From positions 62,001-126,000 of the forward strand of contig JAKBMB010000028.1 of assembly GCA_021831785.1 (NCBI GenBank): DNA of 64,000 bases, read 5' to 3'. The DNA comes from Deltaproteobacteria bacterium (GTDB lineage Bacteria > Desulfobacterota > Binatia > Binatales > Binataceae). The translations under genes were made by a program, and so were the position numbers. Below, one piece after another: positions 3,118-48,335 of this stretch (the stretch's first letter is position 1; each line of letters starts with the position of its first letter). A model generated the notes under the pieces. It was not told the DNA's origin and ran no database searches. It saw nothing but the letters and a program-made list of their open reading frames with translations.

Positions 3118-3209
3118 GGAGAGGTGGCCGAGCCCGGTTTAAGGCGCACGCCTGGAGAGCGTGTAAACTCGAAAGGGTTTCGGGGGTTCAAATCCCCCCC
3201 TCTCCGCCA
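3118..3209 (+). tRNA. tRNA-Ser (anticodon GGA)
   Basis: The acceptor stem GGAGAGG (3118-3124) pairs with CCTCTCC (3199-3205), followed by discriminator G and an encoded CCA (3207-3209). The anticodon stem CACGC/GCGTG closes the loop CTGGAGA with anticodon GGA at 3154-3156. A long variable arm (about 3164-3180) and the T-loop GTTCAAATC make it a class II serine tRNA reading UCC and UCU. Confidence 0.95.
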
Positions 3210-7558: not shown

Positions 7559-8185
7559 TCATTCCGGAACGACCCGGTCCTGACGATGGATGGCAAGTCC
7601 CCGCGTGTAGCGTTCGAGCATCTCGTGATAAGTGTCGGCGAACGTACGGTCTCCGGTCTCGATGCCGAAGACCTTGCGGCGGAAAAGCTTCATGTCGTCC
7701 AGACCGTTTCGAATTTCATCCCACTGGCTGGGATTGTAGATGCGCCCCGGATTGCCCACAGCCACGTGCTGGATCGGCACTACCGAGCCCTCGGGGAGCA
7801 GCGTGTCCGTGTGCACGATCCCGTTCAAGGCCACAACGGAGCCGGCCCCAATCCGCGCACCGTTGAAGACGATGCAGCCGGTGGCGATGAAGGAGTTGGC
7901 GCCGATGGAACAGCCGGAGAGATGCGCATGCGGGCCAACTAAAACGTGATCACCAATCTCCGCGGGAAACCGGGAGCTCCGGCTCCCTGCCCCCCGGATT
8001 ACGGCATGCTCCATGATTACGCAGCGGGCGCCTACCTTCACCGGAGCGCCCTCGGATGTGAGAACGGCCCCGTAGAGGACGCGGGTCTCCTCGCCAACCT
8101 CCACGTCTCCCGAGATCACGGCATTGGGAGCAATCCATGCCGTGCGGTGAATACGAGGAACCACGCCCCGGTGCTCGATAATCAT
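7559..8185 (-). CDS. Left-handed beta-helix hexapeptide-repeat protein, gamma-carbonic-anhydrase-like
   Basis: A 208-residue protein with continuous hexapeptide repeats (IAPNAVISGDVEVGEETRV onward to about residue 140) and an alpha-helical C terminus, as in the gamma-carbonic anhydrase/YrdA group. YrdA-type proteins coordinate metal with three histidines. Aligned by eye with E. coli YrdA, the first position is Arg (HAVIRG) and the other two read GPHAHLSG, with Pro and Ser at the canonical sites and histidines one and two residues displaced. It therefore belongs to a divergent subgroup; neither carbonic anhydrase nor acyltransferase activity can be assumed. AAAGGGTGGTG precedes the ATG. It is transcribed convergently with the MpaB operon. 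Confidence 0.8.
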   Translation of the reverse strand: MIIEHRGVVPRIHRTAWIAPNAVISGDVEVGEETRVLYGAVLTSEGAPVKVGARCVIMEHAVIRGAGSRSSRFPAEIGDHVLVGPHAHLSGCSIGANSFIATGCIVFNGARIGAGSVVALNGIVHTDTLLPEGSVVPIQHVAVGNPGRIYNPSQWDEIRNGLDDMKLFRRKVFGIETGDRTFADTYHEMLERYTRGLAIHRQDRVVPE

Positions 8186-8227
8186 CGCACCACCCTTTCC
8201 CTGTCACTGAACCAGGGATTTCCATAT

Positions 8228-8470
8228 TTAGCCCTGAAGCGAAAATAAATCTTAGTGGGGCGGGCCGGAGCCTGCTCTGAGCGAAGCCGAAGAATGCCCG
8301 CCCGTGCCCAGCGCGGGCAGGGCCGCCCGCGCCACCGAGGCCCGCGGACCGGGCAACCTCCAACGCACCAAAAACCCGCAGGCCGGTCCTCTGCCTTTCG
8401 GGTATGGCACCGGCATAGGGCGCGGACTTCCGAGTCTTCATCGATGAAGTTATTTTCGCTTCAGGGTTAG
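8228..8470. mobile_element. MITE-like element with 17-bp terminal inverted repeats and TTAG target duplication
   Basis: CCCTGAAGCGAAAATAA (8232-8248) and its exact reverse complement TTATTTTCGCTTCAGGG (8450-8466) bound a 235-bp stretch. Both ends are flanked by the same four bases TTAG (8228-8231 and 8467-8470). The interior carries no protein. It contains a GC-rich hairpin near 8300 (TGCCC/GGGCA), a motif close to 8272-8295 (CTGCTCTGAGCGAAGCCGAAG), and a 14-bp palindrome CTTCATCGATGAAG (about 8437-8450). Size, perfect ends and target-site duplication fit a non-autonomous element mobilised in trans. TTAG fits the YTAR target described for some IS5-family elements, but no transposase is present to confirm that. 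Confidence 0.7.
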
Positions 8471-8490
8471 CAGGTTGCGGAAAAAGCCGC

Positions 8491-9525
8491 CTAGACTTCG
8501 CTCGTGCCGAGCCGCTCGCCTTCGGAGAGCGGCAGTGGGAAATGGATTCGCTCCGTGGCAACGCTTAAGAGCTCGACCTTCGCGCCGCTCCGTTCAAAGG
8601 CGTCGATTATCTCTTCGACCAGCCATTCGGGCGATGAGGCGCTGGCCGTCAGTCCCAGCGTGCGGACACCGCTGAGCATTTCAGGCCTTAGATCGCGGAT
8701 TGAATCGACCAGGTAAGAGGACGTCCCGTGCGCCCGCGCCACTTCCACCAAACGGCTGGCGTTCGAGCTTTGCGGCGAGCCGACGACCAGAATCGCGTCG
8801 GCGAGCTGCGCGAGTTCCTTGACCGCATTTTGGCGGTTTTGAGTCGCGTAGCAAATATCGTCGCTTTTAGGCGTAATCAGTTCGGGAAAGCGACGCTTGA
8901 GCGCTTCGATGATGTGCCGGGTGTCATCGATACTCAATGTGGTTTGCGTCACCGCGGCAACGCGAGCCGCATCCGGCACCTGTAAGGCCAACGCCTCTTG
9001 CTCGTTGCCCACCAACAACACCTGACCCGGCGCGACGCCCAAGGTTCCCTTCACTTCCTCATGGCCGGCATGTCCCACCAGAATCACGGTTCGGCCCTCG
9101 CGCGCGTATCGCTCGACTTCCAGATGCACCTTGGTCACCAGCGGGCAGGTGGCGTCGATTACCTTGAGCGCGCGCTCTTTGGCACGCTCCCACTCGCTGG
9201 GCGCGACGCCATGCGCGCTGAAGATCACGCGCTGGCCGCTCGGCACTTCGTCAAGGTTCTCGACGAACACCGCGCCTTCGGCTTCCAGCGCTTCGAGCAC
9301 GAAGCGGTTGTGAACAATCTGATGCCTCACATAAAGCGGCCGCCCGTAGACGCCGAGCGCCGAGCGCACGGCTTGCACCGCGCGCTCCACCCCGGCGCAA
9401 AAGCCGCGCGGTTGCGCAAGCAAGATCTTTTCGACCGTATGGCCGGCAAAAACACTCGACGCTTCAGAACTCGGATTTGTTCGTTTGGTTGACAATATTC
9501 TTTCGCCCGCGTTGATTTCGTTCAC
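8491..9525 (-). CDS. ispH: 4-hydroxy-3-methylbut-2-enyl diphosphate reductase
   Basis: The last step of the MEP isoprenoid pathway: an iron-sulfur enzyme that converts HMBPP to IPP and DMAPP. The three conserved cluster cysteines are visible in PRGFCAGVERA (C43), DATCPLVTKVH (C127) and SDDICYATQNRQ (about 223), along with the substrate-binding SSNASRLVEVA. At 344 residues it is longer than the usual 310-320 because of an N-terminal extension of about 30. The listed start is GTG, and a TTG at residue 11 is an alternative. It is transcribed alone on the minus strand, with the MITE-like element immediately downstream. Confidence 0.95.
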   Translation of the reverse strand: MNEINAGERILSTKRTNPSSEASSVFAGHTVEKILLAQPRGFCAGVERAVQAVRSALGVYGRPLYVRHQIVHNRFVLEALEAEGAVFVENLDEVPSGQRVIFSAHGVAPSEWERAKERALKVIDATCPLVTKVHLEVERYAREGRTVILVGHAGHEEVKGTLGVAPGQVLLVGNEQEALALQVPDAARVAAVTQTTLSIDDTRHIIEALKRRFPELITPKSDDICYATQNRQNAVKELAQLADAILVVGSPQSSNASRLVEVARAHGTSSYLVDSIRDLRPEMLSGVRTLGLTASASSPEWLVEEIIDAFERSGAKVELLSVATERIHFPLPLSEGERLGTSEV

Positions 9526-48248: not shown

Positions 48249-48335
48249 GCGAGGGTGGTGGAACTGGCAGACACGCGAGTTTGAGGGGCTCGTGGTAGAA
48301 ATACCGTGCGGGTTCAAGTCCCGCCCCTCGCACCA
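48249..48335 (+). tRNA. tRNA-Leu (anticodon GAG)
   Basis: Acceptor GCGAGGG (48249-48255) pairs with CCCTCGC (48325-48331), discriminator A, and CCA is encoded (48333-48335). The anticodon stem CGAGT/GCTCG closes the loop TTGAGGG, with GAG at 48283-48285. A long variable arm and the T-loop GTTCAAGTC make it class II leucine tRNA for CUC/CUU. It follows secG, as in many proteobacteria. Confidence 0.95.

Follow-up and report, generated by a model that had tools for sequence, protein, structure and literature searches.

A stretch of 235 bp between two genes in the genome of a Deltaproteobacteria bacterium (NCBI GenBank assembly GCA_021831785.1) raises the question of whether it is a transposon that cannot move by itself and, if so, which transposase moved it. 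The stretch lies in a window, by which we mean the whole piece of DNA that was analysed, of 64,000 nucleotides (contig JAKBMB010000028.1, positions 62,001 to 126,000). A sequence-only reading of the window had described a MITE-like element with perfect 17-bp inverted ends and TTAG on both sides, inserted between ispH and a hexapeptide protein gene and without a transposase inside. All of these structural points held up, and the ends, the length and the flanking TTAG proved to be exact to the base (Table 1). The inverted pair was also recovered independently, as 20-nt arms that are 95% complementary and spaced 201 nt apart. With up to three mismatches allowed, the 17-mer of the terminal inverted repeat (TIR) occurs twice in the window, just at the two ends of the element, compared with an expectation of 0.08 from shuffles, and two matches were seen in none of 100 shuffles. 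The genes on either side of the element, which code for the hexapeptide protein and for IspH/LytB, are both located on the minus strand. Because the element measures 235 bp, it has no room for a transposase gene; the listing of open reading frames for the window covered frames of at least 80 aa. The window also contains two tRNA genes, for tRNA-Ser and tRNA-Leu, which are included in Table 1.

Table 1. Features of the window around the element and loci outside the window that are discussed in the text. G000 is the genome to which the window belongs; positions without a genome handle are those of the window. Handles for genomes, contigs and loci are our own.
Feature	Position	Strand	Basis
tRNA-Ser (gga) gene	3118-3209
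Hexapeptide protein gene, one side of the MITE	7559-8185	-
Left target-site duplication TTAG	8228-8231	.
MITE, 235 bp, copy L001 (= G000:C4:70232-70466)	8232-8466	+
Left terminal inverted repeat CCCTGAAGCGAAAATAA, 17 bp	8232-8248	+
Optional 24-bp module	8271-8294	+	copy alignments
Dispersed motif CTGAGCGAAGCCGAAG, within the module	8277-8292
G+C-rich inner hairpin, alignment columns 65-92	8296-8323	+
Right terminal inverted repeat, exact reverse complement of the left, 17 bp	8450-8466	-
Right target-site duplication TTAG	8467-8470	.
IspH/LytB gene, other side of the MITE	8491-9525	-
tRNA-Leu (gag) gene	48249-48335
Decayed IS1380 element	G000:C15:8480-10083
Rhodanese-domain reading frame, L068 2908-3705	G000:C15:8907-9704	-
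IS701-type (DDE_5) gene, L109	G000:C25:49985-50806
Second ispH-like stretch, L207	G001:C141:747-1102
CCCTGAAACGAAAATCA/CTGTRAATTTTTAG locus L061	G000:C6:8760
CCCTGAAACGAAAATCA/CTGTRAATTTTTAG locus L062	G000:C11:36713
CCCTGAAACGAAAATCA/CTGTRAATTTTTAG locus L063	G000:C19:3656
CCCTGAAACGAAAATCA/CTGTRAATTTTTAG locus L064	G000:C22:21763
CCCTGAAACGAAAATCA/CTGTRAATTTTTAG locus L065	G000:C32:321

The element is present in many copies in its own genome, a draft assembly of 3,680,359 bases in 34 contigs. A search with the 235 bp gave 51 whole and partial matches (E 0.001 or better), several of which are two parts of a single copy and about 12 of which span just the stretch around the inner module (element positions 20-69). 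The TIR, with up to two mismatches, was found 58 times in the genome, whereas the reversed control gave a single hit. Both ends, with at most four mismatches each, are kept in 25 of the 28 loci that were inspected, which amounts to about 25 copies; L005, L013 and L028 have one end missing and were excluded from the 25, and L027, a single end inside a composite repeat, was excluded from the 28. The most common length of the two-ended copies is 211 bp (11 copies), followed by 235 bp (four copies) and by 210, 209 and 186 bp (two copies each), and there are single copies of 212, 177, 164 and 94 bp; the interior is about 130-200 bp long in 24 of the 25. An alignment of 24 copies, from which the 94-bp copy was left out, shows a divergence from the consensus of 1.9-11.4%, with 4.3% for the window copy, and this range suggests that the amplification was probably not very recent. 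When the element was searched against 56 relatives, some match was obtained in 11 and no copy in the same-genus genome G001. The sole long match came from G031, which belongs to the same family; it spans 159 bp with 80% identity and lies at a contig end. The remaining matches were short. The TIR, with up to three mismatches, was matched in 17 of 115 relatives. Among the 16 of these loci that we viewed, G031:C139 and G026:C41 are IS ends, and G031:C36 and G003:C37 are MITE remnants, with an identity of 88% along 32 bp for G003:C37. The remaining viewed matches were taken for chance. A lone copy, conserved with its flanks in distant relatives, is thus not what we found.

The flanks of the copies follow a clear pattern. 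YTAR is found on the left of 23, on the right of 21 and on both sides of 20 of the 25 two-ended copies, and TTAA stands on both sides of six. Identical left and right tetranucleotides are present in 15 of the 25, and when the right flanks were shuffled among the 20 YTAR/YTAR copies, a mean of 6.8 identical pairs was obtained, and the number 15 was reached or exceeded in 3 of 20,000 shuffles (p about 1.5e-4). As the identity of the flanks exceeds the shuffle expectation, the four flanking bases are a duplication and not a mere target preference. In nine of the ten pairs with unequal flanks, the difference is a single base, which later mutation would explain, and one pair differs by three of the four. 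The flanks of copies L019-L021 were not read in the reference orientation, which has no effect on the left/right identity.

The sequence-only reading had also named empty sites as a mark of insertion, and for 15 of the 25 two-ended copies we joined the two flanks and compared them with seven relatives. The query also took the 38 bases beside a 16th copy, L008, which was left out as a tandem at a contig start. Two of the 15 copies gave a gapless join in a relative: copy C25:39816 aligns to G001:C21 with 69% identity over 336 bp, at a position inside an open 403-aa frame in G001, and copy C14:110227, which is flanked by CTAG on both sides, aligns to G031:C172 with 74% identity over 200 bp. The four target bases at these two sites are now CTCA and CTGG and not YTAR, as is expected at most after divergence, the relatives being 69-74% identical. 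For L012 in G016 and L004 in G001, the flanks lie close together without the element, but the join is gapped. Empty sites were therefore seen for two other copies but not for the window copy, for which none was found in G001 or in the ispH flanks of other relatives, because G001 has a different neighbour upstream of ispH and because tblastn did not find the hexapeptide gene in the 1.5-kb flanks of 29 ispH loci from relatives. G001 also contains a second ispH-like stretch (L207), the alignment of which to the window runs on for longer beyond the end of the gene, from CTAGACTTCG; this stretch may be a paralogue or a foreign contig.

Which transposase might have recognised the ends of the element? 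The genome contains a decayed IS1380 element at C15, which is flanked by CTAG and CTAA and the left end of which is the same as the MITE end over 14 bp, whereas the right end differs by one mismatch in 17. The left part of the C15 element codes for an N-terminal transposase piece in two frames, which are 57-59% identical to a reading frame in G031:C139, and for this piece no relatives were found on plasmids or among solved structures. The right part codes for a C-terminal piece, in which 68 residues are 49% identical to the 458-aa transposase of G047. In G047, the IS1380 element is complete, with a length of 1514 bp, the ends CCTCGATGTGACA and the duplication TTAG/TTAG. The two pieces at C15 are separated by about 1 kb of other DNA, which includes a rhodanese-domain reading frame. 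In G031:C139, the exact TIR follows CTAA and is itself followed by a 206-aa frame that stays open to the contig end. This frame matches the NCBIfam IS1380 transposase NF033539 with an E value of 1.4e-16 and a score of 60 bits, which is under the whole-protein cut-off of 180, as a truncated protein may give, and no Pfam transposase match was obtained for it. The same IS end is found in G026:C41, also at a contig end. When the G031 IS end was used as a DNA query against the genome of the window, it matched just the remnant at C15 and a fragment of 83 bases. The autonomous partner that the sequence-only reading had suspected in this genome is thus probably represented by a decayed IS1380 element, the ends of which are almost those of the MITE. 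An intact partner transposase with MITE ends was not found in the draft assembly, where just remnants were seen; contig breaks may hide one.

Two further observations concern the transposase loci of this genome. The rhodanese frame at C15 (PF00581, E 2e-8) contains an in-frame TGA (YCRDSL*DMSGRAA) at a position where rhodanese relatives may have a second cysteine, and this codon may be a nonsense mutation or code for selenocysteine. In addition, eleven PF13701 stretches (L143-L153) in G000 C29, C3, C26, C13 and C25 are other IS1380-type transposases, several of which have stops, and no end within four mismatches of the MITE TIR was found around them.

The ends and the target can also be compared with those of IS1380 elements across the class, in which 31 of 148 genomes have an IS1380 transposase at E 1e-30 or better. 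We took 30 loci, 16 of which are near full length (match over 1.1 kb). Inverted ends that start with CC, together with YTAR on both sides, were found at five of these 16 loci; in both its ends and its target rule, the MITE thus agrees with some of the IS1380 elements that its class contains. The flanks of the five are CTAG/CTAG, CTAA/CTAA, CTAG/CTAA, TTAA/TTAA and TTAG/TTAG; the inverted repeat of L243 is weak and the flanks of L232 are unequal. The four IS1380 elements with clear ends have lengths of 1514-1742 bp. The other 11 near-full-length loci have no YTAR-flanked CC ends, and three of them show weak CC pairs with unrelated flanks. When the best end pairs at all 30 loci were sorted by their start dinucleotide, YTAR flanks were found for 4 of 15 pairs with CC and for 0 of 162 pairs with any of the 15 remaining dinucleotides. 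The fifth CC case, L228, comes from a second-ranked pair, since the best pair at that locus extends into the CTAG duplication, which is palindromic.

Taken together, we propose, with a probability of about 0.88, that the element is a MITE that was mobilised by the IS1380-family transposase of a sister IS and inserted at YTAR with a 4-bp duplication. The MITE is a non-autonomous DNA transposon, in which two 17-bp inverted ends enclose a non-coding, G+C-rich interior. The sister IS would supply the IS1380-family DDE transposase, which would recognise the MITE ends in trans and insert the MITE into a YTAR tetranucleotide, the four bases of which would be duplicated in the process. We infer that the acting enzyme was this IS1380 transposase and not a different one, and that the MITE moved by cut-and-paste. 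Given the divergence of the copies from their consensus and the lack of an intact partner in the assembly, the family appears to be quiet now in its own genome. The many copies and the presence of similar ends on a broken IS1380 element in the same genome mean that the earlier description of a non-autonomous, MITE-like transposon was right, as is also borne out by the YTAR duplications and the two empty sites of other copies, and that its likely partner can be named. For an uncultured lineage, a guess made from the letters alone has in this way become a likely pair, in which a family of MITEs is matched with the family of transposases that mobilised it. The CC(C) end and the YTAR rule of some IS1380 elements of the class provide a usable signature for IS1380-driven MITEs elsewhere.

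The MITE could instead owe its movement to a different transposase that targets YTAR, such as one from the IS701 family, and our search for partners in this genome covered IS701-type as well as IS1380-type transposases. The genome does encode an IS701-type transposase in a gene without stops, and by eye the element is flanked by CTAG. However, the ends of this IS701-type element, again by eye, lie near CTACTGTGTCATAAAGTT and are unlike the MITE end, no TIR match within five mismatches is present in the loci around the gene, and it is the IS1380 remnant at C15 that has nearly the TIR of the MITE. We rejected IS701 as the partner, as its ends do not fit the MITE TIR, and consider it very unlikely that another YTAR-targeting enzyme was at work. 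We give even less credence to the idea that the sequence is not a transposon at all, but a REP/BIME-like hairpin repeat or a structured RNA under selection. The element folds better than shuffles (z -3.95), and the inner module and hairpin arms of the GGGCGGGC type are found in other dispersed repeats, as such an origin might lead one to expect, but the defined ends, the YTAR duplications and the empty sites contradict it. In an alignment of 20 copies (the 24 aligned copies minus the shortened L020 and L024-L026), 0 of 47 predicted pairs show a compensatory change, with a covariation term of +0.2, and the inner hairpin likewise has no compensatory changes across the copies. A comparison of window positions 7600-9100 with Rfam gave a sole match with E up to 1, which is under its gathering score. 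Since the 20 copies show no compensatory base changes, there is no evidence for an RNA function, and a structured RNA was rejected on account of these pairs and of the Rfam result.

Mobilisation of the MITE by an IS1380 transposase is compatible with two origins of its interior, namely an IS1380 element that was deleted internally or IS ends that came to surround unrelated DNA. An origin by deletion would agree with ends that are identical or nearly so to those of the IS over about 20 bp. Beyond these ends, the interior does not clearly resemble the parts of the IS that could be compared, which are the first 640 bp of the G031 copy and the two C15 pieces, and the middle of the IS subfamily is not among them. 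Because just the outer 20 or so bases are common to both, descent of the MITE interior from the IS cannot be claimed, and we regard the deletion derivative as a rather doubtful origin.

The interior also contains the motif CTGAGCGAAGCCGAAG, which the sequence-only reading had likened to a motif dispersed in many environmental genomes. The motif is dispersed in this genome: with up to one mismatch, it occurs 25 times, once of these in the window, compared with 0 for the reversed control. Among the relatives, several members of the same family have short stretches that match the module part of the element. Five of the 25 genomic motifs fall in MITE copies by position, and the 24-bp module is present in four of the 24 aligned copies, the window copy included. 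As it is found in this minority of the copies and also in other dispersed repeats, this motif is not part of the core element, and the module gives the impression of being a separate repeat in its own right that sits inside the MITE.

Bacterial MITEs that are driven in trans by an IS are well known. One of them, MITEPye1 of Paracoccus yeei, has been tied to IS1182 (PMC11578231). MITEPye1 resembles the MITE studied here in that it is small and gene-less, has TIRs, direct repeats and fold-back potential, and is accompanied by an IS with matching ends. It differs in the family of its partner, which is IS1182 and not IS1380, and in its number, with 1-3 copies per chromosome compared with the 25 two-ended copies inspected here. 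Members of the IS1380 family include IS1247, ISPme1 and ISEcp1 (PMC3281130, PMC9330008), and IS1380 elements are described as moving neighbouring DNA via end misrecognition (PMC9330008). The MITE is similar to IS1380 elements in its CC(C) outer ends, its short target duplication and its TIR, which is nearly the same in the C15 remnant and exact in the G031 copy. In contrast to them, it has no transposase gene and is 235 bp and not 1514-1742 bp long, and its duplication is 4 bp, whereas the duplication of IS1247 is listed as 5 bp (PMC3281130). In the literature on IS1380 with MITEs or non-autonomous elements, of which our coverage was partial and thus no proof of novelty, we found no bacterial MITE tied to IS1380, and we found no literature joining IS1380 with TTAA, CTAG and direct repeats.

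A more distant likeness is that to eukaryotic piggyBac. IS1380 and piggyBac are paired among the transposase superfamilies in one study (PMC5718144), and another lists CCC-type ends (CCCTT, CCCTC, CCCAT) and a 4-bp TTAA duplication for piggyBac, with TTAG and CTAA as rare cases (PMC10813416). The MITE shares the CCC-type outer end and a TTAA-like 4-bp duplication with piggyBac as described in these sources, but it is bacterial and its tetranucleotide is relaxed from the strict TTAA to YTAR. The five IS1380 elements with CC ends and YTAR flanks conform to the piggyBac pattern in the same relaxed form. By analogy, one might tentatively speculate that the IS1380 elements and the MITE of this lineage use a piggyBac-like chemistry, with CCC ends, a palindromic YTAR target and possibly seamless excision, and that the MITE is a natural minimal substrate of 235 bp, which might be the first MITE to be linked with IS1380. 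Such a minimal substrate could serve for testing the piggyBac-likeness of the bacterial enzyme.

Some copies of the MITE family are found in more complex arrangements. At the start of G000:C2 (L008 and L078), the end of one copy lies immediately before a complete two-ended copy, the two being separated by TTAA, an arrangement that looks like a tandem or nested insertion. A variant MITE end, CCCTGAAACGAAAATCA, occurs directly after CTGTRAATTTTTAG at five loci (Table 1), four of which are near contig ends, and these loci are a composite of a MITE end and another repeat.
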